Source of the DNA: Candidatus Puniceispirillum sp.
Lineage (GTDB): Bacteria > Pseudomonadota > Alphaproteobacteria > Puniceispirillales > Puniceispirillaceae
Direction of reading: 5' to 3'
NCBI GenBank assembly: GCA_028383305.1
Contig: JAOEVD010000011.1
Location: 1 to 64,000, forward strand
DNA: 64,000 bases
The notes beneath the pieces were generated by a model. It was not told where the DNA came from. It searched no databases and worked only from the letters and a program-made list of their open reading frames with translations. This document shows, piece by piece, positions 7,513 through 37,983 of this stretch (position 1 is its first letter; every line of letters begins with the position of its first letter). The translations under genes and the position numbers were made by a program.

Positions 7513-8313
7513 GTGCAGTATCAAGGCACAGGCGGTAAACGCAAATCTTCCAGTGATGGGCCGCGCCTATCTTCAGTAGCGACAGCGATTCGATTGCTTC
7601 GTGCATTTGATGGGAACGATGTTGAAATTGGTGTCAGTGATCTTGCAAAACGGCTTGGAATTGCCAAAAGCACGGCGCACCGCCTCGCCAGCACTCTGGT
7701 CAGCGAAGGACTGCTTGGCCAGAGCGCACAAACCGGCCGCTATCGCCTTGGTATTGGTTTATTTACGCTTGGTTCAATCGTGCGGTTGCAATTCGACCTT
7801 TGGTCAGGCGCGCGCAGCCTGCTGACGGATTTACGTAAGGCAACTGGCGAGAACGTCCGCCTTGCCTTGCGTGATGCGGAAAACATCGTTTTCCTTCATG
7901 ATTTTGAAAGTCCACAAATGGTCCGTCTTCGGTCCAGTACGGGTCAGATTAAACCGGCATTTTGTACAGCAGAAGGACATTGCTTAATTGCGCATCTTGG
8001 TGAAAGTGAGCTTACAAACCTGCTGGCGATACCGCGCCAACAACGCACGCCGCAAACTCTGATTGATGAGACGGCGATCCGCGACCGGTTAGAGATGGTT
8101 CGGCAAAATGGATATTCTGTTGAAGATGAGGAAAGCGAGGACGGAACCCGCTGTATTGCGGCACCAGTGAGGCAGGCCGATGGCGGCATTGTTGCCTCGA
8201 TTGGTTTGGCCGGGCCGAGGCTACGGATGAAAAAGCGCCTATTCCCGTCATTAATCCCGCAAGTTACCTCGGTTGCTAATCAAATATCGCGGCAAATGGG
8301 ATATCACCATTAA
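7513..8313 (+). CDS. IclR-family transcriptional regulator
   Basis: DNA-binding regulator of 266 residues. The N-terminal winged helix-turn-helix spans about residues 20-75 (GVSDLAKRLGIAKSTAHR, then LVSEGLLGQ), and the C-terminal IclR effector domain covers about 90-260, including CTAEGHCLIAHL and the DEESEDGTRCIAAPV segment. The GTG start at 7513 follows AGGGG. The gene lies directly behind a transporter operon that carries the tandem-palindrome operator. IclR proteins commonly bind GTTCC/GGAAC-type palindromes, so this is the best in-window candidate for the regulator of all seven operator sites. No operator precedes its own gene, so it is probably not autoregulated by that element. Confidence 0.92.
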   Translation: MQYQGTGGKRKSSSDGPRLSSVATAIRLLRAFDGNDVEIGVSDLAKRLGIAKSTAHRLASTLVSEGLLGQSAQTGRYRLGIGLFTLGSIVRLQFDLWSGARSLLTDLRKATGENVRLALRDAENIVFLHDFESPQMVRLRSSTGQIKPAFCTAEGHCLIAHLGESELTNLLAIPRQQRTPQTLIDETAIRDRLEMVRQNGYSVEDEESEDGTRCIAAPVRQADGGIVASIGLAGPRLRMKKRLFPSLIPQVTSVANQISRQMGYHH

Positions 8314-8402: not shown

Positions 8403-8924
8403 TTATCGCCCTGTCAGCATTTCGATTGTAATGACGAGGCTGATCGCTGTTGCAGCGATGCCCGCAATGATCGGCACCGGCAGAACTGATACCATCCGCA
8501 GGCGGGCAAAGTTAAAGCCAAGCAATGGCAATTCGTAAATGAACAGGCGGTGCGCCCCAAACAGGCTCCATGAGGTGATAAAGGTAATCACCGCCGCTGG
8601 TGTCGCACCGGCCTTGACAAAAACGGCAGCAATCGAAAAGCAGATCACCGGTCCAGCTGGTACTAAAAGTCCGGTTAAAAACGCGATAATAAGTCCAGAA
8701 AAGCCCGATCCCTCGCCCAAAAGGCCGCTAATCCATTCGGCGGGAAGTAGTTTTGCACAGAAGCCTGCGGCAATCAGCGCGCAGAACATCCGCGGCACCA
8801 GCACGGCGAATTGCTCGATCCAGCGTTTTAAGGCGGCCCCAAAAACCGGATCGGGTGCGCGAAAGGCGGTCACGATAAGCCCAGCCAGAACTGTCAGCAT
8901 TGCATAGAAGCCAACCCCGAACAT
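8403..8924 (-). CDS. Half-size permease of the DUF318/ArsP-like type, second member of a pair
   Basis: Membrane protein of 173 residues with five or six hydrophobic segments. Its core TGLLVPAGPVICFSIAAVF followed by FITSWSLFGAHRLFIYELPLLG parallels GTITPGGPSSAYALLAVL and ITAWALLGFQRILIWDMPFMG in the gene just upstream, so the two are homologous halves. Full-length family members contain both halves in one chain, so these two probably form a heterodimeric pore. Its ATG overlaps the upstream stop in TAATG, indicating translational coupling. The substrate is unknown; context with a NicO permease and a His-tailed protein suggests a metal or metal complex. It is the last gene of the minus-strand operon starting at 13808. 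Confidence 0.75.
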   Translation of the reverse strand: MFGVGFYAMLTVLAGLIVTAFRAPDPVFGAALKRWIEQFAVLVPRMFCALIAAGFCAKLLPAEWISGLLGEGSGFSGLIIAFLTGLLVPAGPVICFSIAAVFVKAGATPAAVITFITSWSLFGAHRLFIYELPLLGFNFARLRMVSVLPVPIIAGIAATAISLVITIEMLTGR

Positions 8925-9601
8925 TACCGTGACCCTTTTGGTAATTGGCTGGCGTCAAACCGGATTGGTATATGGCGGGCGATCAGCCCTGCAAGGATTG
9001 GCAGCGGCATGCTAACGACAAAGCGTACCATTGAAAATTCTGCGCCCATAAAGGGCATATCCCATATTAGAATCCGCTGGAACCCAAGTAATGCCCATGC
9101 TGTGATATAGGCGACCAATGCGCCACGATCGGCCTTTGCTGCGGCCAATACCGCTAATAGCGCATAGGCAGAAGAGGGGCCGCCCGGGGTGATCGTGCCG
9201 GCGATTGCTGCAATGATCAGGCCGCGAAGCCCTGATTCTGTGCCGACCAGCCGTGCCATCCGGTCACGCGGCAATACCACCCACAACAATGATGCAACAC
9301 ACAGCGCTAGCACCACGCGCGGCATCATATTCACCAGTAACGTCATATCTTCACGTAAAACCGCCTCGACAGCCGCCATGCCATACATCAGATAGCAGAC
9401 GATGCTGACCAGAATGGCAAAGGCCATGAAGCCAAAGAAACCACGGCCAAATGCCGTTGAGAGAATACCACGCCACCAATCGCAATTGCCTAAAAACGCG
9501 AACCCTGCTTCAGCCCCGCTGGGCGCACCAGACGCTGTGGCAACCTTGTCTGCACGCTTGGGGCTGTGCTGGATATCTTGAGGTTTTTGCAGATCTGCCA
9601 T
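8924..9601 (-). CDS. Half-size permease of the DUF318/ArsP-like type, first member of a pair
   Basis: Membrane protein of 225 residues: a ~50-residue polar N-terminus, then about five hydrophobic segments. The signature GTITPGGPSSAYALL and the ITAWALLGFQR stretch match the family motif and the paralogous downstream protein. Both ends overlap neighbours as TAATG: the start with the stop of the His-tailed protein gene, the stop with the start of the second half-permease. The three products are probably made in fixed proportion and work as a complex. The transported species is not known. Confidence 0.75.
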   Translation of the reverse strand: MADLQKPQDIQHSPKRADKVATASGAPSGAEAGFAFLGNCDWWRGILSTAFGRGFFGFMAFAILVSIVCYLMYGMAAVEAVLREDMTLLVNMMPRVVLALCVASLLWVVLPRDRMARLVGTESGLRGLIIAAIAGTITPGGPSSAYALLAVLAAAKADRGALVAYITAWALLGFQRILIWDMPFMGAEFSMVRFVVSMPLPILAGLIARHIPIRFDASQLPKGSR

Positions 9602-10008
9602 TAATGGTGGTGGTGATCATGGTGATGATCATGCTGTTTTGGTGCCAATAACCGGTGGCTGTCATCATGGCCAGCACTTACGGCGTCAATTGTTGCGCGG
9701 TAAAGGTCGGCACCTGGCGGTAACTGGCCCGCAATAAAGCCGGCCAAGCGTGCCAGTGCGATCGCCTGTGATGCAACGACATCGACCACCTCGGTATCAT
9801 CTGCCTTGTTCATCTGTGTTGCCATATCGTGCAGCAGATGATTAAAAATCTGCGACATATACGCCGCCCTACCTTCGGCTGTTGCCAGCCCATCAGGTGC
9901 TGGTGCTGCGGGTATGGTGTCGCCGCCAATCCGGTTTCGCACAAGATAATGGAACTGGGATAAGATTTCGGCATTTATGCTGACATTTTCGTCAATTTCA
10001 CCACACAT
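9601..10008 (-). CDS. Small protein of unknown function with His/Asp-rich C-terminal tail
   Basis: Predicted 135-residue soluble protein, not recognised as a known family. The body is mostly helical-looking and acidic (INAEILSQFHYLVRNRI... NHLLHDMATQM...). The last ~11 residues are almost entirely His and Asp (KQHDHHHDHHHH), a typical divalent-metal-binding tail. I start at ATG 10008, preceded by GGGAG and AAGGAAG, rather than the upstream ATG at 10059. It lies between the NicO permease and two permease halves, and its stop overlaps the next start (TAATG). A metal-delivery or metal-buffering role for the neighbouring transporters is the simplest inference. Confidence 0.7.
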   Translation of the reverse strand: MCGEIDENVSINAEILSQFHYLVRNRIGGDTIPAAPAPDGLATAEGRAAYMSQIFNHLLHDMATQMNKADDTEVVDVVASQAIALARLAGFIAGQLPPGADLYRATIDAVSAGHDDSHRLLAPKQHDHHHDHHHH

Positions 10009-10101
10009 CTTCCTTACTCCCTTTACTGCTTTAGCATCATCTCCACCCGCGCGTTTCAATCTGGCTGGAGTGCGTGCCAGTCACACCTTGGGTGCTGATC
10101 A

Positions 10102-10830
10102 CTAGCTATTGATAAACCCAAGTATCGTCAGACTGCTGAACCCCAATTGGCTGCCCGTCCAGAAACAAAAGCCAGCCAGCGCGGTCAGGACGATCTTGTT
10201 GACGCGGCCTGCACTGGCTTGGGCAAGAGACAGCGGCATACTTACCACGATTGACAATAGGGCCATGCCGACAATCGCGCCAGCGGCAAAGACCAGAATA
10301 TAGATAAATGCTTCAAAAATTGAATGGGTGGCGGCCACAACTAGAACTAGCAATCCACCCGATCCGGCGGCACCATGCAGCAGTCCGATCAGCAATGCCA
10401 GCCAATGCCCACGCTTGGGATGTTTGTGTTGATGGGCTAATTGCGAATGCGGTATCGGGGCTGGCTCGGCCTGATGGCTATGGGCGTGAAGGTGCTTATG
10501 GCCGTCATGCTGGTGCACATGGAAATGCACTTTGCGGACGACTAAACGGTAAATAGTGTTTAGCCCAAGGCCAATAATCATCGCAGCAACCGTCAATTCC
10601 AGCCAAGCTTCGACTCTTTTGTCAAAACTGATGCTGGCAAGGATCACAATGCCACATATGAGGAGTAGCGCGATGCCATGGCCGATGCCCCACACAACGC
10701 CGCGGTGCAGTAATGAGCGCAGCCCACGCCCATGCTGATTGACCGATGCCACCGCAGCAAGGTGATCAGCCTCCATGGCATGGGTGATGCCAATAAAGAA
10801 CCCGATCACAAGAAGCCCAAGTAATTCCAT
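10102..10830 (-). CDS. NicO/UreH-type nickel-cobalt permease with His-rich loop
   Basis: Membrane protein of about 242 residues. The first helix carries GITHAMEADHLAAVAS, the H-x4-D-H metal-recognition motif of the HoxN/NixA/NicO superfamily, and helix two carries GHGIALLL. A cytoplasmic loop around residues 95-135 is very rich in histidine (HFHVHQHDGHKHLHAHSH, then HSQLAHQHKH). The fold ends with LLHGAAGSGGLLVL and further helices. I choose ATG 10830, four bases after the preceding stop. In this operon it would supply Ni or Co to a co-expressed metalloenzyme, the bicupin or another cupin being candidates. Whether it acts in import or export is not decidable here. Confidence 0.85.
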   Translation of the reverse strand: MELLGLLVIGFFIGITHAMEADHLAAVASVNQHGRGLRSLLHRGVVWGIGHGIALLLICGIVILASISFDKRVEAWLELTVAAMIIGLGLNTIYRLVVRKVHFHVHQHDGHKHLHAHSHQAEPAPIPHSQLAHQHKHPKRGHWLALLIGLLHGAAGSGGLLVLVVAATHSIFEAFIYILVFAAGAIVGMALLSIVVSMPLSLAQASAGRVNKIVLTALAGFCFWTGSQLGFSSLTILGFINS

Positions 10831-10834
10831 TTGG

Positions 10835-11314
10835 TTACAGATCTCCGATGCGAAGCGCATCAATGGTGGTGGCAATGATGTCGGGATCCTTGGTGAAAAT
10901 CTGATTTGCAACCTGCGGGCGGCGCCCCGGTTGCTGATGCAGGATAATCCAATTGACCATTATATTGTGTGAACGCGCCGTATCGTAAATACCGGCTGCG
11001 GCCTGATCTTGTGATGCGTTTGTTGAGACCATAAGTACCAGATCATGCGCCGAGATTAATGCTTCAAGATGTCCAACAGAGCCGCGCTCGTCACTGAGGG
11101 TTAGCTGGTTTGGCGCGTCGGCGGCGAGCCGGTAAACACGCTGCGATACAATTGCTGGCTGTGACCGGATTAGATCGGCTGCCGCATCGTCAAGTCCCAG
11201 AAACAGGGCCCTGCGGTGACGGCTATTTGGATATTGGACACGGAACAGCAACTCGCTAGCCGAGCTAGCCTTTGCACAGCTATGCAATAAAGTTGGCTGA
11301 ACCGTCTTTTCCAT
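10835..11314 (-). CDS. Conserved-looking protein of unknown function, between Rieske oxygenase and NicO permease
   Basis: A soluble protein of about 159 residues that I do not recognise. It shows alternating strand/helix pattern: RRALFLGLDDAAADLI, then DLVLMVSTNASQDQAAAGIYD and IMVNWIILHQ, reminiscent of a small Rossmann-like alpha/beta fold with a GxD-type first loop. No catalytic motif is evident. I start at ATG 11314 (MEKTVQP); an upstream in-frame start would overlap the oxygenase gene. It begins 13 bases after the oxygenase stop and ends four bases before the NicO start, so it is firmly part of the operon. Confidence 0.65.
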   Translation of the reverse strand: MEKTVQPTLLHSCAKASSASELLFRVQYPNSRHRRALFLGLDDAAADLIRSQPAIVSQRVYRLAADAPNQLTLSDERGSVGHLEALISAHDLVLMVSTNASQDQAAAGIYDTARSHNIMVNWIILHQQPGRRPQVANQIFTKDPDIIATTIDALRIGDL

Positions 11315-11327
11315 CACGCGCCTATAT

Positions 11328-12614
11328 CTAGACAGTGGTCTGCGGTTTGCCGACTTCTGCTTTGAAATCGTCGGCGCAGGCCTCGCTGAATGGCTGGTCC
11401 TTTGGCAGCACCTTTGCCACTGAGCGGACAAGGTGATGATTGGTGTCTCGGCCGGGCGGGGTGACGCCTTTTTCGATTAAGGCATTTACCGCTTTGCGTA
11501 ATTTATGGCGCGCCATAATGATACCATTATCAGTCGATACCAGATTTTCTTTGGTTCGGTCGACAATCGGGCCCATGCTTTCCTGCAAGCTGGCATCCTG
11601 CATGGCAATGCCCCAGACACCGGAATAAAGCTCGCCACGCTTCTGTGCGTCGCGATCCATCAGATAGTCATTATCTTTGTTCTGCAACGGGCGGAACGTT
11701 CCCGGCACATATTGGTTATGAACGCCGTTCCCCTCGATCATATATTGACGCTCTTGATCGGTAAGGGCGCGGGTCGGATGATAATCGTAACTCCATGCCC
11801 AGCAATTTTCATCATCAATCGGGATCCAGAAGTGACCATGAACAGGGTGATCACCACGCGGCGGAATCATTGTAAAGCTTGGCATTACCCATTGTGTGAT
11901 ACGCCAGTAATAATGGCCTTCTTCAGCCATCCGGCGGGCACCGATATAAAGACCGCCTTCTGAATCGACAACTTCAAAGACTGGCTTTTTATCATTGAAA
12001 TTATATTTGTTGCCAGCTGCACCTTTAAATAATGGATCAGATTTTAGACCTCCTGAATGCAGGAAAGACACATGACTAGAGTCAATACCGCCTTCCATTG
12101 CCTGCAGCCAATTGCTTTCCTGCCAGCGCTTTGAGCTGTAGGTTTGTTCAGCTGGAACCGTGGCAAATTCCCATTTTGGCAGGTCTGGAACATTGTCCTT
12201 ATCACCCATATGCGTCCAGAGAATGTCGCCAAGCTTGATCAGTGGATAGGCAGATAATTTGATCTTTTCACAAAAGCCGCTTTCCTCGGGCTCGGACGGC
12301 ACCTCAATGCAATTGCCGTTTACGTCATATTTCCAGCCATGATACGGGCAGCGGATGCCGCCTTCCTCATTGCGACCAAACCACAAAGAGACGCCGCGAT
12401 GTGCACAGAATTCATCGATCAGCCCGTATTCCCCGTTGCTGTCCCGAAAGGCAAGCAAACGCTCGCCAAGAAGTTTGACACGCACTGGCGCACAATCATC
12501 TTCGGGCAGTTCAGATGCGAGCAACGCCGGAATCCAATATTGGCGGAATAAGTCACCCATCGGCGTGCCTGCGTTGGTCTGGGTCAGCAGGTCATTAATT
12601 TCTTTTCTAAGCAT
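11328..12614 (-). CDS. Rieske non-haem iron oxygenase, phthalate 4,5-dioxygenase-like large subunit
   Basis: Ring-hydroxylating or demethylating oxygenase of about 428 residues. The N-terminus MLRKEINDLL...GTPMGDLFRQYW matches phthalate-dioxygenase-type starts. The Rieske centre is C-x-H...C-x2-H (CAHRG ... CPYHGW) near residues 75-97. The mononuclear iron site is GGIDSSHVSFLHSGG (D-x2-H-x4-H) near 185. I start at ATG 12614, nine bases after GGAG. It would receive electrons from a reductase such as the protein at 15828-16823. Phthalate-type acids fit the nearby decarboxylase homologues, but the true substrate is unknown. It follows the bicupin in the operon headed by the operator at 13921-13957. 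Confidence 0.88.
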   Translation of the reverse strand: MLRKEINDLLTQTNAGTPMGDLFRQYWIPALLASELPEDDCAPVRVKLLGERLLAFRDSNGEYGLIDEFCAHRGVSLWFGRNEEGGIRCPYHGWKYDVNGNCIEVPSEPEESGFCEKIKLSAYPLIKLGDILWTHMGDKDNVPDLPKWEFATVPAEQTYSSKRWQESNWLQAMEGGIDSSHVSFLHSGGLKSDPLFKGAAGNKYNFNDKKPVFEVVDSEGGLYIGARRMAEEGHYYWRITQWVMPSFTMIPPRGDHPVHGHFWIPIDDENCWAWSYDYHPTRALTDQERQYMIEGNGVHNQYVPGTFRPLQNKDNDYLMDRDAQKRGELYSGVWGIAMQDASLQESMGPIVDRTKENLVSTDNGIIMARHKLRKAVNALIEKGVTPPGRDTNHHLVRSVAKVLPKDQPFSEACADDFKAEVGKPQTTV

Positions 12615-12692
12615 CGGCATAATCTCCAAAAACAAACAAGTCTTGTTTCATCCAAATACGATTTAATGATCGTTATGGAAATCACGTTAGAA

Positions 12693-13808
12693 CTAGCGCT
12701 TGGGCGGAAGGTCGGGTAGTTCCGCATCATACGCGGATTGCATATTTGCAGCTATTCCGTTCTTTGCCAAGGCATCCGAAAACATCGTGCGTACCCCCTG
12801 ACTTTCATCGGCATAATCGATCTGGTCGCCGCCAATTCGCTGAGAAATCCACGCCTTTGGCACGCCCTGCGCATTGCGGATGGCGACGCCTTCATATTTG
12901 AAAGCTAAATATCGCGCCGGTGTTGTGCCGGTGTTGAAATGCTGATGATACCACATATTGGGCGGCACAATCATGCTACCAACTTCCCACTCATACCGGG
13001 TTGGCTCTTCGCCTTCAGGCCACATCAGACTATAGCCCTCGCCGGACAGAATGATCACATGCGCGCCCGGCCCATGGCGGTGACATTTTTTATAGGTGCC
13101 AATTGGGAACTGGCTGATATGGCTGTTCATCGAGCATTTTGCCAATTGAAAGCGGATATGCCCGCCTCCAGCGCCGCGCTCTTTGGCTTCGATGAGCGGT
13201 AAATTCACCGCGTCGGCGACAAAGTTAGTCTCCATCAACAGACCCTTTTGCTCGCCCTGATCAGCGAAATAATCAGGTTCGCCGGAAAAGCGGCCAAGGA
13301 AGTCATGCTGGGTTCCAAAAATAAATTCCGGATCTTCAAACACATTCATTAAAGGCGGCATGTTGGTGACTGACACATAGCGCGCAGGCTCGGTGCCAGA
13401 TCCATTGAAATGCTGATGATTGGCGTTCAGCGGGATGCCAAAAATGGCGCCGGGGCCCCACTCAAACGAGGCTTTATCGCCGCGATCGTTCCAGACCGTT
13501 GTCGAGCCGCGTCCGGAAAGAATTAAAATTGTTTCTTCAAAAAGCTGGCGCTGGGGCACGAGCTTGCCACCAGCCGGAATTTCCATGACATAGCAGTCAT
13601 TCGTCGTGCGCGATGCGTCATGGTTGATAAAGACTGCATTGCCGCCGCGCCGCGCCCATGGCTTTAACGCGACATGATTAAGATTGCGAACATATAACCC
13701 ATCGACAATATCAAGGCCTTCATTAGCGATAAACCGCGTGTAAGTGGTTTCTTTTTCGGTACGGAATTTATCGGCTAGCTTGTCCGAAACGATCGCATTT
13801 TTTATCAT
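12693..13808 (-). CDS. Two-domain cupin (bicupin) protein
   Basis: About 371 residues with two cupin barrels. The N-terminal barrel has PQRQLFEETILILSGRG in motif 1, lacking the H-x-H pair, then NANHQHF in motif 2. The C-terminal barrel has KKCHRHGPGAHVIILSGEG, with a His in place of the usual Glu, and WYHQHFN. Only the C-terminal barrel therefore looks metal-competent, possibly with an all-histidine (3-His or 4-His) site. ATG 13808 follows CGAGG; an upstream in-frame start at 13847 is less likely. First gene of the 5.4-kb minus-strand operon. It is related in plan to the bicupin at 28325-29533, which likewise adjoins a EutA-like gene. Reaction unknown. Confidence 0.85.
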   Translation of the reverse strand: MIKNAIVSDKLADKFRTEKETTYTRFIANEGLDIVDGLYVRNLNHVALKPWARRGGNAVFINHDASRTTNDCYVMEIPAGGKLVPQRQLFEETILILSGRGSTTVWNDRGDKASFEWGPGAIFGIPLNANHQHFNGSGTEPARYVSVTNMPPLMNVFEDPEFIFGTQHDFLGRFSGEPDYFADQGEQKGLLMETNFVADAVNLPLIEAKERGAGGGHIRFQLAKCSMNSHISQFPIGTYKKCHRHGPGAHVIILSGEGYSLMWPEGEEPTRYEWEVGSMIVPPNMWYHQHFNTGTTPARYLAFKYEGVAIRNAQGVPKAWISQRIGGDQIDYADESQGVRTMFSDALAKNGIAANMQSAYDAELPDLPPKR

Positions 13809-13902
13809 TGATAGGCCTCGATTTATAGGTTTGGGCAGCTGGTTCAACTGGCGCTTGTTCAGCCTGATTGGGCTGCTTTTATCTTGGAACGACTGTTAGA
13901 CT

Positions 13903-13957
13903 ATGTTAGAAGTTTCCACCTAGTATGTCAATGGAACATTGGTCTGTATAGCGGAAC
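13903..13957 (-). promoter_or_regulatory. Tandem-palindrome operator and promoter of the bicupin-Rieske-metal transport operon
   Basis: Read on the minus strand: GTTCCGCTATACAGACC (13957-13941), three bases, then GTTCCATTGACATACTA (13937-13921), again a 20-bp period. The second element contains TTGACA (13931-13926), and exactly 17 bases further is TAACAT (13908-13903). The first element shares the core CCGCTATAC with the site upstream of the bicupin at 28325, so both bicupin operons carry the closest pair of operators. The same intergenic space also feeds the divergent EutA-like gene. Confidence 0.75.
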
Positions 13958-13970
13958 GAAAGGCAATTCG

Positions 13971-15716
13971 ATGTCGCAGAAAAAACCTGATAATTCGCCT
14001 GCCTCGCATACAGTCGCGGACCATGCTTTTGGTGATTTTTTCCCGCATGAACATGACGGCGATGCTGATCACGACCATGATGATATTGATCCGGGCCCGC
14101 TTGAGGATAACCCGATATGGCAGCGCGATAATGTGACGCTTAGCACGGTTGGTGTTGATATTGGATCATCTGGCACACAAGTTATCTTTTCGCAGATTCA
14201 TTTACAGCGGCTGAATGATTCGCTTGCCAGCCGCTATGTGATTGTCGACCGGGTCACTGATTTTGAATCTCCGGTCAGCTTTACCCCGTTCATCGATCAA
14301 AAAACCATTGATGCGGTTGCCTTGGGACGGATCATTGATGCCGCTTATGCCGAGGCGGGTATCCTACCGCGACAGATTGATATTGGTGTGGTGATTCTGA
14401 CCGGTGAGGCGTTACGCCGTGATAATGCGGCGGCGGTCGCCGAGGTTATTGCGGAAAAGGGCGGTGAGTTTGTTACCGCAACCGCTGGTAACCATATGGA
14501 GGCAATGTTGGCCGCCTTTGGATCGGGTGCGGCCAAGGCCAGCCATGATCAGGAAAACCGTATTTTGAATATTGATATCGGCGGTGGCACGACCAAATTG
14601 GCATTGCTGGATCACGGGAAAATTGTCTGGACGGCGGCGTTGGATATTGGCGGGCGGCTGATTGCCATTGATGATGGCAAGATCGTGCGGCTGGATGCGG
14701 CGGGTCGGCTTCATGCCAAAACCGCCGGTCATGATCTTGAGCTTGGCCAATCCGTTGCGGCTGAAACAATGGATCAGATTGCTGCTGGCATGGCACGTGC
14801 TCTGGTCAATGCGCTGGGCGGTATGATGATGGATGAAGTGGCGGCATTGTTCCTGACCGATTTGCCAGATGATCTGACCGATATTCAGGCGGTAATGTTT
14901 TCCGGCGGGGTTGCTGAATATGTTTATCAGCGTGAGACACAAAATTTTGGTGATCTCGGGTTTTATCTTGGCAAACATCTTGGCGATCTTGCTGCTGCTG
15001 GTGCGTTTCCGGCGCCACTGCTGGCGGCGGTCGCCGGTATTCGGGCAACAGCGCTTGGCGCCTCGGAATATTCGGTTCAGCTAAGCGGCCAGACTGGCAC
15101 GATCAGCGCCCCGGGCAAAGTGTTGCCGCGCCGCAATATGCAGGTGCTAAAGCCAAATATTGATTTTACCAGCGACCCGTCAGCCGACGAGATTGCCGCC
15201 GCGATTCGCGCGCATTTTGTCGCCTTCGACCTTGATATTAATCTGGCGGAAACGGCGCTTGCTTTCGATTGGCGGGGCAGCCCTGATTACCAGCGCATTC
15301 GGGCGCTGGCTGATGGTATTCATGATGCTTTGTCCGGCTATCTTGGCGGTGGCGGCATTCTTTATGTGATGCTGGATGGGGACATTGCCTATACGCTTGG
15401 CGGTATCTTGCAGAATGAATTGCAGATCAGCAACGATATGCTGGTCATTGACGGCATTATCCTTCGCGATTTTGATTACATCGATCTTGGCAAAATTCGG
15501 TTGCCGTCATTTACCGTGCCGCTGACCGTAAAGTCACTGCTGTTCCGTGAGGAACCGGGCGCAAGCAAAACTGACCGAATTTTTGCCAGCGGCGATGAGG
15601 CCGGCCGCCAGCATCATCAAAAACACGCGCATGGCCAGCACCACCATACCTACACCCATGCCCATGCCCATCACCATCACCATCACAGTCATAAGCATGA
15701 TGGGCATGATGATTAG
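13971..15716 (+). CDS. EutA-like reactivating ATPase with histidine-rich termini
   Basis: About 581 residues of the EutA (ethanolamine ammonia-lyase reactivase) family, ASKHA fold. Seen: STVGVDIGSSGTQVIFSQ (phosphate-1 loop) near residue 60, VVILTGEALRRDNA, ATAGNHMEAMLAAFGSGA, NIDIGGGTTKLALLD (phosphate-2) near 205, MFSGGVAEY, and the family C-terminus DYIDLGKI...VPLTVKSLLF. Two additions are unusual: an N-terminal HEHDGDADHDHDD segment and a ~40-residue tail with more than 20 histidines after residue ~540. Family members reactivate cobalamin-dependent lyases, yet no such lyase is in the window. With NicO and CobW nearby, a metal-loading ATPase role is a reasonable inference. Start ATG 13971 chosen over 13884. 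Confidence 0.85.
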   Translation: MSQKKPDNSPASHTVADHAFGDFFPHEHDGDADHDHDDIDPGPLEDNPIWQRDNVTLSTVGVDIGSSGTQVIFSQIHLQRLNDSLASRYVIVDRVTDFESPVSFTPFIDQKTIDAVALGRIIDAAYAEAGILPRQIDIGVVILTGEALRRDNAAAVAEVIAEKGGEFVTATAGNHMEAMLAAFGSGAAKASHDQENRILNIDIGGGTTKLALLDHGKIVWTAALDIGGRLIAIDDGKIVRLDAAGRLHAKTAGHDLELGQSVAAETMDQIAAGMARALVNALGGMMMDEVAALFLTDLPDDLTDIQAVMFSGGVAEYVYQRETQNFGDLGFYLGKHLGDLAAAGAFPAPLLAAVAGIRATALGASEYSVQLSGQTGTISAPGKVLPRRNMQVLKPNIDFTSDPSADEIAAAIRAHFVAFDLDINLAETALAFDWRGSPDYQRIRALADGIHDALSGYLGGGGILYVMLDGDIAYTLGGILQNELQISNDMLVIDGIILRDFDYIDLGKIRLPSFTVPLTVKSLLFREEPGASKTDRIFASGDEAGRQHHQKHAHGQHHHTYTHAHAHHHHHHSHKHDGHDD

Positions 15717-16915: not shown

Positions 16916-17737
16916 ATGGGTGACAAGGTCAGTTTAGCGTCGCTGGCAGCGATGAAGGCAAGAGGTGAGAAAATTGTCGGCATGGTTGTATGGGACACCC
17001 ATATGGCCAAGATCGTTGATCGCATCGGTGTCGAAATTGCGTCGGTGGGTGATACGGTTGGACATAATCTATGGGGCCAGGCGAACCCGCTTGAAATAAC
17101 CATGGATCAGATGATGCCGGTTTGTCAGGCGGTGCGCCGCGGGGTCAAGAACGCGCTGGTCAGTGCGGATTTTCCCTTTGGCCCATTACAGGCTGGCCCG
17201 CAACAGGCGGTGGATGCGGCAATCCGTATGGTTAAGGAAGCCGGCGTCGATATGATCAAGCTGGATGGTGCTGCCGAGGCGCCTGAAGGGGTCGAAGCGT
17301 TGGTCAAGGCAGGTATTCCTGTTTGGGCGCAATTTGGTGTTACGCCACAAACCGCGCTGGCTTATGGTATGGAATATAAATCTATGAATACCGCCGATGC
17401 GGTGGTGCCAGATGAAATGGTTGACACGTTGATCCGTCAGGCAAAAATGCTGGAAGATGCTGGGGCATCATTGCTGGATTTCACCAATTCAGGGCCGATC
17501 GTCGGACCTGCGGTCGTCGAGGCTGTCACGATACCGGTGATTGGTGGTTTTGGGGGCGGCCCATGGCTTAATGGACGGGTGCGGATGGCGCATGCGGCGA
17601 TTGGCTATAGCGCTGCGGCAGTCGATAGTGATGCGGAGAACTATGCCAATGTTGGCAAGATCGCCTTTGACGCGCTTGGCGAATGTGCGGCTGATATCCG
17701 TGCCGGGAAACAAATCAAAGGCGCCACGAAGCGCTAG
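16916..17737 (+). CDS. PanB-like ketopantoate hydroxymethyltransferase-family enzyme (divergent paralogue)
   Basis: A TIM-barrel protein of 273 residues clearly of the PanB superfamily, but the genuine panB lies at 51056-51865. Alignment by eye to PanB: the metal aspartates are kept (VGDTVG and SADFPFG), the metal glutamate region KIEGG reads KLDGA, the H-L-G-L-T-P-Q segment reads QFGVTPQT, and the catalytic LECVP segment reads LDFTNSGP, so the general-base Glu is replaced. A different aldol or retro-aldol reaction on a 2-oxoacid is the likely role. SD GAGGG is present and the alpha/beta hydrolase follows after 12 bases, indicating a shared pathway. Confidence 0.8.
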   Translation: MGDKVSLASLAAMKARGEKIVGMVVWDTHMAKIVDRIGVEIASVGDTVGHNLWGQANPLEITMDQMMPVCQAVRRGVKNALVSADFPFGPLQAGPQQAVDAAIRMVKEAGVDMIKLDGAAEAPEGVEALVKAGIPVWAQFGVTPQTALAYGMEYKSMNTADAVVPDEMVDTLIRQAKMLEDAGASLLDFTNSGPIVGPAVVEAVTIPVIGGFGGGPWLNGRVRMAHAAIGYSAAAVDSDAENYANVGKIAFDALGECAADIRAGKQIKGATKR

Positions 17738-19954: not shown

Positions 19955-20007
19955 GTTCTTTTATTCGGAACTATGTTCTTGAAAAAGGAATGGTGCATTG
20001 ATAGGTT
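19955..20007 (+). promoter_or_regulatory. Tandem-palindrome operator upstream of alcohol dehydrogenase-CobW-RraA operon
   Basis: GTTCTTTTATTCGGAAC (19955-19971) and GTTCTTGAAAAAGGAAT (19975-19991) again sit 20 bp apart, with strong arms GTTCT/GGAAC and GTTCT/GGAAT. A weak promoter reading is TTGAAA (19979-19984), 17 bases, TAGGTT (20002-20007). It lies in the divergent space between the hypothetical gene at 19913 and the dehydrogenase at 20089, and could act on both. Confidence 0.7.
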
Positions 20008-21214: not shown

Positions 21215-22279
21215 ATGACCCAAGGTCAGCATGATCGGGCAGTGACAGAAAATCCTGTCGTGCCGGTGACGCTGATTACCGGCTTCCTTGGTGCTGGCAA
21301 AACCAGCCTGATTAATCATGTATTAGCGGGTGACAATGGTCAAAAATTTGCCGTGATCGTCAATGAATTTGGCGCCATCGGTATTGACCATGATTTGATT
21401 GTCAGCAGTACGGAAACCCTGCTCGAACTCAGCAATGGCTGCGTGTGCTGTACCATTCGTGGTGACCTTGTGACAACGTTGCGAGACTTGCTGGCGCGGT
21501 CTGAAGATTATAACGGTATCTTTATTGAGACCACCGGCCTTGCCGATCCGGCGCCGGTGATCCAGACCTTTATGTTTGATCAATTATTGGCGTCAAAGGC
21601 CTGTCTTGACGCGGTTGTGACGGTGATTGACGCGCATCATTTTGCCAGTCAGGTTGAGCGGTTCCCCGAGGCCTTGCATCAATTGCTTTATGCTAATGTC
21701 GTGATCGTCAATAAAACCGAATCTTGCAGCGCGCCTGCATTGGATGCGCTGACGCAAAATCTGCGGGCGCTTAATGCGCATGCGTTGTTGCATTTTACCG
21801 AGAATGCCGCCGTGCCATTTGGCAGCATCACCGGACAGAACGCGTTTGATATGGAACGGCTTATTGATGAGTTTGGCGGTGCGGGGAAAATTGACACTGG
21901 CGATGGGGCTGCTGAACGGCCAGCGCATGATTTTGCGCATGATGATGCAGCAAAATCGCAGGCCAGCGCCCATCACGTTACCAGCCAGTCATTTGCCAGT
22001 GCGGCGCCGCTTGATCTGATGCGACTTGAGGCTTGGCTTAATGGGCTATTGCAGAAACACGGCCAAGATATATTGCGGATGAAAGGCATTTTTCAAATTG
22101 CTGGCCGCAATGAGAAACTCGTTTTTCAGGCCGTTCATATGATGTCGGATGCGCGCTGGGTTGATGTTTGGGCACCCGGTGAACTGCGGCAATCGCGGCT
22201 TGTGATCATCGGGCAACAGCTCGATCAGCTGGCGTTAGCGGATTTTGATTTGGGCTTGCTGGTGACACAAAACAGATAG
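21215..22279 (+). CDS. CobW/COG0523-family GTP-dependent metallochaperone
   Basis: About 354 residues. Walker A ITGFLGAGKTSL near residue 20-32, the metal motif GCVCCTIRGDL (C-x-C-C) near 74, switch region TTGLADPAPV, NKTE guanine motif near 167, then a linker containing HDFAHDDAAKSQASAHH and the C-terminal CobW_C domain ending with VWAPGELRQSRLVIIGQ. Family members insert or supply Zn, Co or Fe to client enzymes. The neighbouring zinc alcohol dehydrogenase and the cupins controlled by the same operator are candidate clients. It begins 22 bases after the dehydrogenase stop with a poor ribosome-binding site, suggesting coupling. Confidence 0.9.
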   Translation: MTQGQHDRAVTENPVVPVTLITGFLGAGKTSLINHVLAGDNGQKFAVIVNEFGAIGIDHDLIVSSTETLLELSNGCVCCTIRGDLVTTLRDLLARSEDYNGIFIETTGLADPAPVIQTFMFDQLLASKACLDAVVTVIDAHHFASQVERFPEALHQLLYANVVIVNKTESCSAPALDALTQNLRALNAHALLHFTENAAVPFGSITGQNAFDMERLIDEFGGAGKIDTGDGAAERPAHDFAHDDAAKSQASAHHVTSQSFASAAPLDLMRLEAWLNGLLQKHGQDILRMKGIFQIAGRNEKLVFQAVHMMSDARWVDVWAPGELRQSRLVIIGQQLDQLALADFDLGLLVTQNR

Positions 22280-28324: not shown

Positions 28325-29533
28325 ATGCCGCATGATATAGATAACATGGTCCATTGGCACGAGCCAAAGCCCGGTGAAAAAGCCGGTTATGGACGCTTTG
28401 ACTTGCCAAAATCTGACTATGATCAGTTTATGGAATCCGATGGTATTCCGATTGTAAGAGGTGTTGGTGTTTCCAAAGTGCAGAATTTGCCGCTTGTTGA
28501 CTGGCCCCGCATGGGCGGTCGTGGCACCTATATCCAGCTGCATGGCACCGAGGGCAAATGGGGCAATTATGTTGTCGAAGTGCCCGCTGCTGGTGCGCTG
28601 AATGTTGAAAAACATATTTACGAAGAAATTTATCTTGTTGTGGAAGGGCGCGGCTCGACCGAGGTTTGGCTTGAAGAAAACGGCCCAAAACATGTTTTTG
28701 AATGGCAAACCGGATCAATGTTCTCAATTCCGGTCAATGCCTATCATCGGATTGTGAATGCAACATCGTCACCGGCGCTGCTGCTTGGCGGCACAACAGC
28801 GCCGAATTTGATGAATTTAATTGGCAATCGTGATTTTATTTTCAATTGCCCTTACGAGTTTACCGACCGATTCTCGCCCGCAGCCGATTTTTATAAGCCG
28901 AATGATGATGTCGAACCAGATCCGATTCGCGGTCTTGCTATGCGACGAACAAATCTAGTGCCTGATGTGATGAATTGTGATTTGCCGCTTGATAACCGGC
29001 GCTCTCCTGGCTGGCGGCGTGTTGAACCGTTCATGACCGGCAATAAATTCTATCTTTGGATCGGTCAGCATGAGACTGGCAAATATTCCAAAGCGCACGC
29101 CCATTCGTCAGCCGCGGTTTTGGTATGTATCAAAGGGCGCGGCTACACCTATACATGGCCCGAAGAATGCGGTGTCAACCCGTGGCAAGATGGTCATGCT
29201 GATAAGGTCAAGCGGGTCGATTATGAACCGGTTGGCTTGGTCAGTGCGGCACCGGGCGGTGCGCGCTGGTATCACCAACATTTTAATGCATCTGATGGGC
29301 CGTTCCGCCTCACTGCATGGTTTGGGCCACATCATCCGAGCCTTGTTACCGGCCTGCCGCCGGGAGAAAAACAGATCGACTATACCGGCATGGATGTGAA
29401 TGAAGGGGGAACCTCAATTCCTTATTGGATGGAAGATCCAAAGCTTCGCAAAGAGTTCGAAGAAATGCTGGCCGAACATGGCCAAGAAAGTCGGATGGAT
29501 CCATCGCTTTATGAAAAACCAGCTGACAAATAG
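28325..29533 (+). CDS. Two-domain cupin (bicupin) protein
   Basis: Two cupin barrels in 402 residues. N-terminal barrel: VEKHIYEEIYLVVEGRG in motif 1 (one His, two Glu) and VNAYHRI in motif 2. C-terminal barrel: SKAHAHSSAAVLVCIKGRG (H-x-H, but Ser-Ser-Ala where Glu is usual) and ARWYHQHFN. It shares the plan of the bicupin at 12693-13808, but the ligand sets differ, so the two probably have distinct metals or substrates. It lies 57 bases before a EutA-like ATPase gene on the same strand, as the other bicupin is divergently paired with a EutA-like gene. Reaction unknown; a ring-cleaving or hydroxyacid-oxidising dioxygenase is conceivable. Confidence 0.85.
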   Translation: MPHDIDNMVHWHEPKPGEKAGYGRFDLPKSDYDQFMESDGIPIVRGVGVSKVQNLPLVDWPRMGGRGTYIQLHGTEGKWGNYVVEVPAAGALNVEKHIYEEIYLVVEGRGSTEVWLEENGPKHVFEWQTGSMFSIPVNAYHRIVNATSSPALLLGGTTAPNLMNLIGNRDFIFNCPYEFTDRFSPAADFYKPNDDVEPDPIRGLAMRRTNLVPDVMNCDLPLDNRRSPGWRRVEPFMTGNKFYLWIGQHETGKYSKAHAHSSAAVLVCIKGRGYTYTWPEECGVNPWQDGHADKVKRVDYEPVGLVSAAPGGARWYHQHFNASDGPFRLTAWFGPHHPSLVTGLPPGEKQIDYTGMDVNEGGTSIPYWMEDPKLRKEFEEMLAEHGQESRMDPSLYEKPADK

Positions 29534-29590
29534 CGCTGTCAGTATTGCTATGGGGTTTCAGCGCGATTTTGGAAGAAAGCATTTGCAGCC

Positions 29591-31072
29591 GTGACGACGA
29601 ATGAAAATACTGGCGGCCGCGTGTTTTTTTCCAGTGCTGAACGCAGCCTGATTGAGGAAGATGAAATTATCCTCAAGACGGTTGGCGTTGATATCGGCTC
29701 GGCAACGTCGCATATCCTGTTTTCCGAGATCTATCTCGAAAGGCTTGATACGCGATATATCGTCTCCAAGCGTGAAATCATCCATCGTTCGGAAATTTTG
29801 CTAACGCCCTATAGCCATGAGCAGGATATCGACAAGGACCGGCTTGGGCAGTTTTTCGACAAGCAATTCAAGCTAGCCGGCTTGGCACCTGATGATATCG
29901 ATACTGGTGCGTTGATTTTAACTGGTGTTGCGGTGCGCCGCCGCAATGCCCGCGCCATTGGCGAGCTGTTTGCCGCCCAAAGTGGAAAATTTGTTTCGGT
30001 CAGTGCGGGTGACGGGCTTGAGGCCATTATGGCTGGGCATGGTTCGGGTGCGGTCGGGTTAACCGGCGGTGCTGATAATGATCGGTCTATGGTGTTGAAT
30101 ATTGACATTGGTGGCGGCACGACCAAGCTGGCAGCTTGTGGTGGGGGCGAGGTAAAACATTGCTCGGCAATTGATGCAGGTGCCCGACTTGTGACGTTTG
30201 ACCAGCAGAATATCATCACGCATATCGAACCTTTTGGGCAAAAATACCTCCTACTGGCAGGGTTTGATCTGCGGGTAGGTGATCCGATTTCAGACAGTCA
30301 AAAATCCCTGCTCGCCGATCTTATGGTTGATCAGATTATGGCCGCGATGGCGGGTGATGAGTTGGAGGGGCTGTACCGATTGCCCCGCCTGCCTGCGGGC
30401 AATGACTATCGCCAGATTATTTTTTCCGGCGGCGTCTGTGAATATATTGCCAACCCCGAATTGGCGACATTTGGTGATTTGGGGCAGGCCATCGCAAAGA
30501 GTATTTCCAGCCGGGTTGCGGCGCTTGATATTCCCTATCAGGCAGCCAATCTTGGCATTCGGGCGACCGTGATTGGCGCGTCGCAATATACGGTTCAGGT
30601 CAGTGGCTCGACCATCTATTTCGATCCTGCAGATGTTCTGCCAATTCGCAACGTGCCGGTGATCGCGCCTGAATTGACGATCGGTGATGAGATTGACGAG
30701 GCAATTGTAAAGGCTGAAATCATCGCGGCGCTGGCGCAGATGAACTTGGCCGATCCGGATCAGCCAGTTGCGCTTGCGGTACCGTGGCAAGGCTCGGCAA
30801 GTTTTGCTAGGCTTCAGGGGTTTGCCCGTGCCGTTCTTGGTGGTCTTGAAACAGTCATTGGGCGCGGGCATCCGCTGATACTGGTTGTTCGCGGTGATAT
30901 TGCGGGTCTGTTGGGAATTCATTTTCGTGTTGAAGAAGGCTTTGCCGGTCCGATCATTTCGATTGATGGAATTGAGGTTTCAAATTTTGATTTCATCGAT
31001 ATTGGTGATGTTATAAGGTCAACCGGATCCGCCCCTGTGGTTATTAAATCTCTTATCTTTCCGTCGGAGTAA
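29591..31072 (+). CDS. EutA-like reactivating ATPase (no histidine tail)
   Basis: 493 residues, close to E. coli-type EutA length. Seen: TVGVDIGSATSHILFSE near residue 30, GALILTGVAVRRRNARA, VSAGDGLEAIMAGHGSGA, NIDIGGGTTKLAACGGGE, IFSGGVCEYIANPE, and FDFIDIGDV...VVIKSLIFPSE at the C-terminus. It is about equally related in plan to the copy at 13971-15716, but lacks the histidine-rich termini of that copy. GTG start at 29591 with a weak, distant SD. The gene lies in a bicupin-EutA-TctB unit. No cobalamin-dependent ammonia-lyase gene accompanies it, so its client enzyme is unknown. Confidence 0.87.
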   Translation: MTTNENTGGRVFFSSAERSLIEEDEIILKTVGVDIGSATSHILFSEIYLERLDTRYIVSKREIIHRSEILLTPYSHEQDIDKDRLGQFFDKQFKLAGLAPDDIDTGALILTGVAVRRRNARAIGELFAAQSGKFVSVSAGDGLEAIMAGHGSGAVGLTGGADNDRSMVLNIDIGGGTTKLAACGGGEVKHCSAIDAGARLVTFDQQNIITHIEPFGQKYLLLAGFDLRVGDPISDSQKSLLADLMVDQIMAAMAGDELEGLYRLPRLPAGNDYRQIIFSGGVCEYIANPELATFGDLGQAIAKSISSRVAALDIPYQAANLGIRATVIGASQYTVQVSGSTIYFDPADVLPIRNVPVIAPELTIGDEIDEAIVKAEIIAALAQMNLADPDQPVALAVPWQGSASFARLQGFARAVLGGLETVIGRGHPLILVVRGDIAGLLGIHFRVEEGFAGPIISIDGIEVSNFDFIDIGDVIRSTGSAPVVIKSLIFPSE

Positions 31073-33511: not shown

Positions 33512-34210
33512 ATGGGCGTTGAGGCATTTTTCCAAGCTTCTATTGACGTGTTCAGCAGTGGTTCAGTGATGTTTGTATTTCTTGGCGTGCTTTTAGGCTT
33601 GTGCTTCGGCATCATCCCAGGCTTGGGCGGGACAACGGCACTGGCACTTCTAATTCCAATAACTTTTACAATGGACGCGCTCGATGCAATGTATCTTGCA
33701 GGCGGGGTTATGGGTGCGACGTCATTTGGTGGTTCAATTACTGCAATCCTATTAAATACACCAGGGACTGCGCCAAATGCGGCTACCAGCTTTGATGGTT
33801 ATCCACTTGCACAGCAAGGAAAAGCCGGCCTTGCTATTGGCGCTTCAGCTACCGCTTCAGCCGTTGGTGGTTTGTTGGGGCTGATCACCTTGATGATGTT
33901 TATCCCCTTAGCAAAAGAAATTGTTCTGTTGTTTGGACCAGTGGAATTTTTGTTGTTAACGCTATTAGGCTTGGTAGCAATAGCTGTTTCTTCAAGAGGT
34001 AAGCTACTTCGCGGGCTGATTGCGGGCGGTTTTGGACTGATGCTGGCCTTTGTGGGTGTTGATACTATGTCTGGTGAGACACGGTTTACACTCGACACCG
34101 ATTACTTATGGGACGGTGTGCCATTGGTCCCGACATTGACGGGTTTGTTTGCCATCAGTCAAATGATTGAACTTTCCCTCAAGGGGGGGGGCGGTAGCCT
34201 CAAAGATTGA
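33512..34210 (+). CDS. TctA permease, N-terminal portion of a frameshifted gene
   Basis: 232 codons covering the first half of a TctA permease: GIIPGLGGTTALALLIPI near residue 35, LLNTPGTAPNAATSFDGYPLAQQGKAG near 90, and LFAISQMIELSLK at the end. The frame then runs into nine G and stops nine codons after SLK. Removing one G would continue as SLKGGAVASKIEDIGR into the second half (34167-35006) and give one protein of about 497 residues, matching the intact TctA at 5402-6901 (499). The second TctB/TctC set therefore lacks a working TctA unless the frame is restored by slippage or the base is a sequencing error. Confidence 0.85.
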   Translation: MGVEAFFQASIDVFSSGSVMFVFLGVLLGLCFGIIPGLGGTTALALLIPITFTMDALDAMYLAGGVMGATSFGGSITAILLNTPGTAPNAATSFDGYPLAQQGKAGLAIGASATASAVGGLLGLITLMMFIPLAKEIVLLFGPVEFLLLTLLGLVAIAVSSRGKLLRGLIAGGFGLMLAFVGVDTMSGETRFTLDTDYLWDGVPLVPTLTGLFAISQMIELSLKGGGGSLKD

Positions 34211-35006
34211 GGATATTGGCCGGATCTCTGGAATGTGGGATGGCGTAAAGTCCGTCTTTATTAATTGGACTGTTTTATTTCGAGGTTCAATTATTGGCAC
34301 TGTAATAGGCGCTATTCCAGGCCTTGGTGGAACCGTTGCTTCATTTATTGCTTATACTTCAACGGTTCAAGCGTCGTCAGATCCTTCGAGTTTTGGAAAG
34401 GGCAATATTATTGGCGTTATTGCACCAGAGAGCGCCAACAATGCAAAGGATGGCGGATCTCTGGTTCCAACAGTCGCTTTTGGAATTCCAGGAAGTGCTG
34501 AAACTGCTGTTTTTTTGGGCATTCTTGTGCTTCATGGTATTGATCCAGGGCCAACTTTGTTGTTGGAGAACGAAAGAGAAATTTACGGCCTGATAATAGC
34601 ACTTACGTTGTCTGCAGTTGGAGCATCTGTTATTGGGTTGCTTACAGCTAAATGGTTGGTAAAAATCACGTTTGTAAATGTGAATATATTAGTGCCATTG
34701 GTGGTTACAATCTCTCTTACCGGTGTTTATGTACTCCAAGGCAAACCCGGCGATGTCTTAATGGCGCTAATCATGGGTATTGTTGGGTATCTTATGATTA
34801 GATTTGATTACCCGCGATTGACTTTGGTGATAGCACTGGTACTTGGAGAAACAGCCGAGCGATCTTTTCATCAGTCCCTGCTGATTTCGGATCATAATCT
34901 AGTTGGGCTTATTATGGATCGACCACAAGCGATCATATTAGTGCTGGCAACCTTGCTGACATTGCTGTTGCCAGCGTTACGCAAGCGCGGTAAAAAAACC
35001 GCCTGA
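34167..35006 (+). CDS. TctA permease, C-terminal portion of the frameshifted gene
   Basis: About 270 residues with the second half of TctA: VIGAIPGLGGTVASFIAYTSTVQAS, then GVIAPESANNAKDGGSLVPTVAFGIPGSAETA, followed by the C-terminal membrane segments. It is in the +1 frame relative to 33512-34210, and the two overlap by 44 bases around the G-run. The open frame can be traced from a TTG at 34167, but no ribosome-binding site supports independent start there. I regard it as the downstream part of the same gene, not as a separate protein. Confidence 0.8.
   Translation: MNFPSRGGAVASKIEDIGRISGMWDGVKSVFINWTVLFRGSIIGTVIGAIPGLGGTVASFIAYTSTVQASSDPSSFGKGNIIGVIAPESANNAKDGGSLVPTVAFGIPGSAETAVFLGILVLHGIDPGPTLLLENEREIYGLIIALTLSAVGASVIGLLTAKWLVKITFVNVNILVPLVVTISLTGVYVLQGKPGDVLMALIMGIVGYLMIRFDYPRLTLVIALVLGETAERSFHQSLLISDHNLVGLIMDRPQAIILVLATLLTLLLPALRKRGKKTA
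34183..34191 (+). repeat. Homopolymeric run of nine G inside tctA
   Basis: Nine consecutive G, the only such long run I noticed in the window, sitting exactly at the junction of the two TctA reading frames. Eight G would restore a full-length protein. Such tracts are prone to slipped-strand change and to sequencing miscalls. Confidence 0.95.
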
Positions 35007-36216: not shown

Positions 36217-36261
36217 AATCTAGTTCCATTAAACGTAATTGGTAGGGTTAGATCTATCCAC

Positions 36262-36990
36262 CTAATCTCGATTTTTACAATCAATCCCGTTGAATTCGCC
36301 GAGGTCTTCAAGCGTATCGACATAGGTAAAACCTGCGGCGGCTAGGGCAGAGCGCATATTATAAAGATCAATGCCAAGCTCACCTGCAGCTAGTTTCCCC
36401 CGCTTGCTGTCCTCGTTTGCAATCCGCTCATTCGCCTTGATCAGCACGTTGTCTGCCTGTTTACGGGCAACAACGCAGACGCCATCATCATCGGCAACAA
36501 TTACATCACCCGGAAAGACCAGCTGACCAGCGCATACCACCGGCACATTCACCGCACCAGGTGTGTTTTTAACGGTGCCTTTTGATGAGATTGCCCGAGA
36601 CCAGACCGGAAAATTCATCGCTTTTAAATCGGCTGCATCGCGTGTTCCCCCATCAATCACCAGCCCCAGAACACCGCGCGCCCGCGCCGAAGTGGCCAGC
36701 AGGTCACCAAAGAAACCATCTGTATTATCGGTTGTGCAGGCCACCACCAAAATATCGCCCGTCTGGCACATTTCAATAGCCACGTGAATCATCCAATTAT
36801 CACCGGGCTGGGCCAACACAGTTACCGCCGTGCCGCCAATCCGGGCGCCGGGATAGACCGGCCGGATATAGGATTTAAAAAGGCCAATCCGGCCTTGCGC
36901 CTCATGCACGGTTGAAACACCAGCATTGCCAAGCCCGATGGCGGTTGCGGCATCGGCGCGCGTGATATTGCGAACCGCGACTGTTTTCAT
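36262..36990 (-). CDS. ligK: 4-carboxy-4-hydroxy-2-oxoadipate aldolase (RraA-fold), LigK type
   Basis: 242 residues of the RraA-like class II aldolase family. The signature [24 protein letters not shown] with the catalytic Arg-Asp lies near residues 100-125, and [14 protein letters not shown] follows. In the protocatechuate 4,5-cleavage pathway LigK splits 4-carboxy-4-hydroxy-2-oxoadipate into pyruvate and oxaloacetate, and usually also decarboxylates oxaloacetate. Location between ligC and pobA supports that role over the copy at 22339. AAGGA ribosome-binding site. The C-terminal end ([11 protein letters not shown]) is slightly longer than in the paralogue. Confidence 0.87.
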
Positions 36991-37011
36991 TATCCTATCC
37001 TTATTTCCGGG

Positions 37012-37968: not shown

Positions 37969-37983
37969 CTTATCGGTACTTCC

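Follow-up and report, generated by a model that had tools for sequence, protein, structure and literature searches.

A EutA-family ATPase paired with a bicupin in an alphaproteobacterial catabolic island, a candidate reactivation or metal-loading factor for cupin oxygenases

Gene Arrangement at the EutA1 Locus

The window analyzed here comprises the first 64,000 nucleotides of contig JAOEVD010000011.1 of Candidatus Puniceispirillum sp. (assembly GCA_028383305.1), an alphaproteobacterial genome of 2.41 Mb in 81 contigs that is 84% complete. Within a catabolic island of this window, the gene for the EutA-family ATPase EutA1 (13971-15716, plus strand, start codon ATG at 13971) is oriented divergently to a minus-strand unit (13808-8403), which codes for a bicupin (bicupin1), a Rieske oxygenase, the protein orf198, a NicO-family permease, a small protein with a His/Asp tail and two half-permeases (Table 1). 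An earlier note, made from this DNA alone, had proposed a metal supply line for co-regulated cupins at this locus, with the EutA-like protein as loading or reactivation factor. All genes named there were found, and orf198 was found as an additional gene inside the unit. A second EutA-bicupin pair, bicupin2-EutA2 (28325-31072), is present in the same window and lacks the His tail.

EutA1 and EutA2 in the EutA Family

Both proteins match the EutA profile PF06277 from position 3 to 474 of 475, with 368 bits for EutA1 and 353 bits for EutA2 at a cut-off of 27. The cut-off of the NCBIfam EutA equivalog was missed, with 310 bits versus 598 for the best equivalog. The ATPase motifs phosphate 1, phosphate 2 and adenosine are intact (GVDIGSS, NIDIGGGTTK and FSGGV), as they are in classical EutA, and the structure model of EutA1 shows the actin/Hsp70-like (ASKHA) ATPase fold, with exopolyphosphatases (PPX/GppA), AnmK, FtsA and HgdC, the activator of 2-hydroxyglutaryl-CoA dehydratase, as structural matches. 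A sequence search of the PDB returned no solved EutA structure.

In a tree of 66 EutA proteins, 7 classical proteins were split from the 59 others with a support of 100/100. Six proteins of the classical set lie beside EutBC in annotated records, and the seventh, from Acetoanaerobium, came without annotation. The tree was rooted at the midpoint. The 59 non-classical proteins fall into the EutA1 clade (with bicupin1), the EutA2 clade (with bicupin2) and two more groups with other bicupins, and one subgroup adjoins UbiD decarboxylases, with a small cupin in the vicinity. At the phosphate-2 loop position of Lys209 all 7 classical proteins have Asn, and at that of Ser66 they have Thr.

No EutB was found in the 84% complete genome of the window, in agreement with a complete relative (G020). 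Among 385 alphaproteobacterial genomes, EutA was detected in 11 (1-4 copies each) and EutB in 27 without any overlap, so that EutB is absent from 11 of 11 EutA genomes; a search of the EutA loci for B12-binding motifs was negative as well. A classical role in ethanolamine or B12 metabolism was rejected on these grounds. The EutA genes annotated on plasmids of E. coli, Klebsiella, Cetobacterium and haloarchaea, by contrast, lie beside EutB and EutC. In the overall explanation given below, which we consider about evenly balanced, EutA1 and EutA2 would form a non-ethanolamine branch of the EutA family. In papers on ectoine metabolism, some of which came up in the literature search, the name “EutA” is to our knowledge given to an unrelated protein. 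As a side observation, the 27 genomes with EutB had no EutA at an E-value of 1e-20, suggesting that the ethanolamine ammonia-lyase of Alphaproteobacteria works without a EutA reactivase.

Pairing of EutA With Bicupins

Using bicupin2 as query against the same 385 genomes, relatives were found in 12, namely in all 11 genomes with EutA and in one 70% complete genome from a genus having EutA. The hypergeometric chance of this overlap is 2e-20, a value that has to be read in view of few effectively independent cases, since only 7 genera in 4 families contribute. In a second collection of 72,556 plasmid records, bicupin1 relatives occurred in four (three of Sinorhizobium, one of Phyllobacterium), and these were exactly the records with a EutA 39-40% identical to EutA1. 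At gene level, 27 EutA genes were examined in the 11 alphaproteobacterial genomes; a bicupin is the neighbor of 21, and a single-domain cupin lies near 4 more.

A scan of named genomes was evaluated for the best 80 EutA1-like loci, which come from Alpha- and Betaproteobacteria and Actinobacteria, plus one Nevskia. Cultured carriers are Brevirhabdus pacifica, Fertoeibacter niger, Pusillimonas caeni, Noviherbaspirillum humi and species of Planotetraspora and Streptomyces. For 45 of these 80 loci at least 7 kb were available on both sides, and a bicupin was found within 7 kb in 37 of them, in 28 cases within 1.5 kb. The distances among EutA proteins correlate with those among the adjacent bicupins (r 0.76 for 40 pairs, reached in 0 of 2000 permutations). 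As the nearest neighbors agree in just 19 of the 40 pairs, the match holds at the level of clades and is not exact. Furthermore, one genome can carry several EutA-bicupin pairs at distant sites, three in the case of genome G358, which is not explained by a shared island alone. The second pair of the window and the Actinobacteria keep the pair without a His tail, and EutA plus bicupin is therefore regarded as the core of the system. Judged from these gene and sequence comparisons, the bicupin is very probably the client of the neighboring EutA.

Two other candidate partners were discarded. Most loci of EutA2 and of clades A and B are without a Rieske oxygenase while the bicupin stays, which argues against the Rieske enzyme as a general client. 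A UbiD-type decarboxylase marks a second type of EutA neighborhood (L061, L064, L073, L075 and also L060). The first four loci each have a single-domain cupin nearby, and three of them (L064, L073, L075) have NicO beside EutA; L060 adjoins UbiD as well, but has two bicupins and a split permease. With adjacency in four loci, all with a small cupin nearby, and in L060 with its bicupins, UbiD was rejected as the common partner of EutA.

Histidine Tail and Metal-Handling Genes

The EutA fold ends with a conserved KSLxF, directly after which the His tail of EutA1 starts. About 7 more His are found in the N-terminus; both termini are disordered in the model. More than 20 His had been claimed for this tail, which is real, although 18 in 56 residues were counted. 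Among the EutA-family proteins compared, the tail was found in 66 of 66 proteobacterial EutA1 proteins (median 17.5 His), but in none of 17 actinobacterial EutA1, 23 EutA2 and 13 other proteins. The N-terminal [DE]HxH motif occurs in 64 of 66 proteobacterial EutA1, in 10 of 13 proteins of the other two groups and in no EutA2. The tail as an essential part of the system was rejected, as it is lacking in the 17 actinobacterial EutA1 and the 23 EutA2 proteins.

In Rhodobacteraceae the gene neighborhood is conserved, one of the points on which the earlier proposal depended: NicO with its loop, the His-tailed protein and the permease halves are kept together with the Rieske-bicupin1-EutA1 core at 39-62% identity. 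NicO itself, His loop included, is 39-46% identical, and its HAxxADH-type motif reads THAMEADHL in the window and RHALDADHI in L064. The permease had been described as split, and this was borne out, as relatives of the two halves match opposite halves of one family, ArsP_1 (the C-half at positions 170-291 and the N-half at 15-130). ArsP_1 is nonetheless a putative assignment, with 32.5 and 24.3 bits for the homologues, around the cut-off of 32.3, and 22.2 bits for a window half. Rhizobiales and Betaproteobacteria have an ATP-binding cassette transporter instead (fused permease, ATPase, binding proteins) of a type that includes iron(III) importers; iron as its substrate would be a guess from family resemblance. 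The Phyllobacterium locus contains a “putative metal transport protein” and two split chromate-transporter genes. The actinobacterial loci showed no counterpart of the window’s NicO, of its permease halves or of its His-tailed protein. The metal-supply layer is thus a real but lineage-specific addition to the EutA-bicupin core. Whether the His elements act as a metal store for the client is a question on which we see the chances as even.

Nature of the Bicupin and the Catabolic Pathway

The nearest solved relatives of the bicupin in sequence are gentisate/salicylate 1,2-dioxygenases (E 7.7e-12). Its structure model, with a predicted local distance difference test score (pLDDT) of 87, matches the same enzymes with Z-scores of 19.9-20.7, and seed globulins and oxalate decarboxylase score slightly lower (18-19). 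No NCBIfam equivalog reached its cut-off for the bicupin. The His metal motif is located in the C-terminal cupin, where H256, H258 and H301 of bicupin1 are invariant in 85 sequences (numbering of the long open reading frame of 384 amino acids), and the N-terminal cupin is degenerate. Ring-cleaving enzymes of the gentisate/salicylate type hold Fe(II) by three His. As part of the overall explanation, and at the same balanced strength, the relatives and the model suggest that the bicupin may be a metal-dependent oxygenase of this type acting in an aromatic-acid pathway. With regard to its metal, sequence comparison lets us lean toward iron rather than nickel or cobalt; nickel or cobalt for the cupin itself, to which the earlier note had been open, is not indicated, the nearest relatives being Fe(II) ring-cleaving dioxygenases.

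The neighboring genes include a curated match to LigK, a 4-carboxy-4-hydroxy-2-oxoadipate aldolase (RraA1), which makes pyruvate and oxaloacetate the probable end products of the pathway, by way of the gallate/protocatechuate 4,5 route. The same island contains a protocatechuate 4,5-cleavage set at 35041-39217 (PobA, a LigAB-type dioxygenase, a LigK-type aldolase and a GFO dehydrogenase), and two ring-cleavage routes may therefore operate side by side.

Operator Sites and Further Features of the Island

Six Rhodobacteraceae loci share the tandem site between EutA1 and bicupin1 (13927-13957) in the form GTCAATGGACCG..GGTCCGCATAGAGGAAC. Six related sites were observed in the window versus 0.39 expected by chance. 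A related single site at 19955 precedes the ADH-CobW operon, and related sites at 1762 and 25297 precede the small-cupin operons. Bicupin2-EutA2 has a different site (28233), common to the TctC gene (32361). One operator for all six cupins, as supposed before, was rejected on account of bicupin2 with its own site. What stands of the shared operator is the tandem site with its relatives at the CobW and small-cupin operons, and the metal-handling genes do cluster with the cupin/EutA unit under one operator family. In most Rhodobacteraceae loci examined, a GTTC-N-GGAAC site is also found immediately past the end of EutA1, at the location of an IclR-type gene, suggesting the IclR-type regulator as candidate operator binder.

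Table 1. Coordinates and basis of assignment of the features discussed (positions in the window).
Feature	Position	Strand	Basis
EutA1, EutA-family (ASKHA) ATPase	13971..15716	+	PF06277 E 1e-109; N-terminal His motif HEHDGDADHDHDD and C-terminal His tail
EutA1 C-terminal tail, 56 amino acids, 18 His	15546..15713	+	Past conserved KSLxF end of fold; pLDDT <50
Bicupin1, conserved EutA1 partner	12693..13808	-	Cupin_2; HxH....H and HQHFN kept in C-terminal cupin
Tandem operator, divergent EutA1/bicupin1 promoter region, 31 bp	13927..13957	+	Kept in six Rhodobacteraceae loci
Rieske oxygenase, LigXa-like C-terminal domain	11328..12635	-	Pfam Rieske and LigXa_C
orf198, no family match	10835..11314	-	27-33% identity, Actinobacteria loci included
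NicO-family permease, His-rich loop	10102..10830	-	PF03824, 30.0 bits versus cut-off 27.7
Small protein with His/Asp tail	9601..10008	-	41-55% identity, tail included, in Rhodobacteraceae
permA, C-terminal half of putative ArsP_1-type permease	8924..9601	-	Profile match of homologue
permB, N-terminal half of putative ArsP_1-type permease	8403..8924	-	Profile match of homologue
EutA2, second EutA-family ATPase, without His motif or tail	29591..31072	+	PF06277 E 4e-105
Bicupin2, EutA2 partner	28325..29533	+	Profile match and family search
CobW/G3E GTPase, metallochaperone family, ADH operon	21215..22279	+	Operator site 19955-19971
IclR-type regulator, candidate operator binder	7513..8313	+	Assigned from sequence

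Several further genes were recorded. The orf198 gene adjoins the Rieske gene from Rhodobacteraceae to Actinobacteria, and no family was found for it in the profile search. An enzyme of the PanB-like ketopantoate hydroxymethyltransferase family (16916-17737) is conserved in the EutA1-bicupin1 cluster of Proteobacteria and Actinobacteria; its role is perhaps a one-carbon transfer after demethylation. A tRNA-Arg (CCT) at 709-785 lies where the catabolic island begins on the left, immediately before its first gene, likewise in the relative G020, and no repeat of its 3' end was found inside the window. In the second tripartite transporter, TctA (33512-35006) is broken into two frames, with an indel near 34176 relative to the single open reading frame of 497 amino acids in the complete genome of G020; this may be a genuine frameshift or an error of the assembly.

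Proposed Function and Alternative Explanations

With the help of ATP, classical EutA opens ethanolamine ammonia-lyase and expels damaged B12. Ring-cleaving dioxygenases of the non-haem iron type are known to lose activity when their metal is oxidized, and few dedicated repair factors are known for them, an example being the XylT ferredoxin. The step from the observed pairing to reactivation is taken by analogy with classical EutA and other ASKHA activators. ATP binding and hydrolysis by EutA, in contact with the bicupin, would open the latter, which would then swap an inactive center (oxidized or wrong metal, or trapped product) for active metal, probably Fe(II). Holding and bringing this metal would be the task, in lineages having them, of the His-rich elements (motif and tail of EutA1, small His-tailed protein) together with NicO, CobW and the split permease. 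We give this proposal, in which EutA would use ATP to reactivate the bicupin or to load it with metal supplied through His tail and transporters, about the same chance of being right as of being wrong. From the earlier idea of a metal line for the co-regulated cupins, the clustering of the metal genes with the unit was retained; the client of EutA is now specifically the bicupin, and metal handling appears as an add-on with a presumed supply function.

A number of observations weigh against the proposal. Neither a bicupin nor a related small cupin is near 2 of the 27 EutA genes (near-identical, from two species) and 5 of the 45 well-flanked EutA1 loci, and the four EutA genes adjoining a UbiD decarboxylase have just a small cupin close by. 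We are aware that gene linkage can equally reflect a shared pathway. Metal supply by the tail is not a universal function, since Actinobacteria and EutA2 have neither the tail nor the transporters, and the NicO and ArsP_1 matches both lie near their cut-offs.

The most direct alternative for EutA itself is a catalytic partner that phosphorylates or otherwise activates an aromatic or ring-cleaved substrate, the product of which is taken by the bicupin. Many ASKHA proteins are kinases, and phenol is phosphorylated before UbiD-type chemistry. The fold is common to kinases and phosphatases, as the AnmK and PPX/GppA matches illustrate, and constant pairing with one enzyme family, together with the UbiD partners of some members, would suit such a role. 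The EutA-specific architecture is, however, kept at full length, the best studied members of the family are reactivases, and we know of no substrate kinase among them. We regard substrate activation as unlikely and, by the analogies named, moderately favor ATP-driven maintenance over it. A somewhat better, though still doubtful, alternative concerns the metal genes, which might serve homeostasis or efflux (nickel/cobalt or arsenicals) in the island, with the tails as mere buffers and an action of EutA on the bicupin that involves no delivery of metal. Exporters occur in the NicO and ArsP families, Actinobacteria and EutA2 manage without the metal genes, and the transporters differ by lineage. 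Against this, operon and operator family are common with the oxygenase genes across Rhodobacteraceae, and NicO adjoins EutA also in the unrelated UbiD-type loci L064, L073 and L075.

Two explanations would deprive the pairing of its meaning. EutA and bicupin might co-occur by hitch-hiking, as whole catabolic islands move. EutA genes are present in just 3 of 61 genomes of the window’s family, which makes the island mobile in effect. The pair is, however, kept in four EutA clades, varied gene contexts and two phyla while other neighbors change, paralogous pairs lie at distant sites of one genome, and many genomes with one gene but without the other were not seen, which renders hitch-hiking quite improbable. 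Service of EutA to a B12 enzyme encoded elsewhere, with an accidental place beside the bicupin, would fit the full-length family match. It is already largely refuted and scarcely credible in view of 0 of 11 EutA genomes with EutB, loci without a B12-binding motif, near-perfect co-occurrence with bicupins in two independent collections, and the separate clade with its altered phosphate-loop residue.

In the open-access papers searched, no pairing of EutA with a cupin, Rieske oxygenase or dioxygenase was described, and the statement of the earlier note that no system of such composition was known still stands. If the reactivation or metal-loading proposal is true, a mechanism known just for B12 enzymes extends to a second class of metalloenzymes, the cupin oxygenases. 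We see a balanced case for a widespread EutA-fold class of such ATP-driven factors, with a proteobacterial subclass equipped with His store and transporters. Automatic annotation would be corrected too, as Streptomyces, rhizobia and marine bacteria have many genes that are called “ethanolamine ammonia-lyase reactivating factor” but are probably unrelated to ethanolamine. The cultured carriers make the proposal testable.

Comparison With Known Systems

Classical EutA and the window proteins share the full-length family match, the ASKHA ATPase motifs and 31-33% identity to EutA of E. coli and Klebsiella. They differ in that the latter are without EutBC, have a bicupin as partner, belong to a separate clade and carry Lys209 and Ser66; His motif and tail are features of EutA1. 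With gentisate/salicylate 1,2-dioxygenase, the bicupin shares the two-cupin architecture, the best sequence and structure matches and the HxH...H site, but it is 11-15% identical over the structure and the metal motif of its N-terminal cupin is degenerate. The metallochaperones UreE and HypB of nickel enzymes resemble the putative factor EutA1 as nucleotide-using or dedicated factors with a His-rich extension and adjoining transporters; the EutA1 fold is ASKHA and not that of a G3E GTPase or of UreE. On account of its His-rich C-terminus, UreE was studied in a truncated form (reference 144 cited in PMC7055735). The ATP-driven ASKHA activators HgdC and the ATPase subunits of benzoyl-CoA reductase match EutA1 in fold (Z about 14.5), whereas EutA1 is longer (about 580 versus about 260 amino acids), has other partners and shows no indication of a reductive role.

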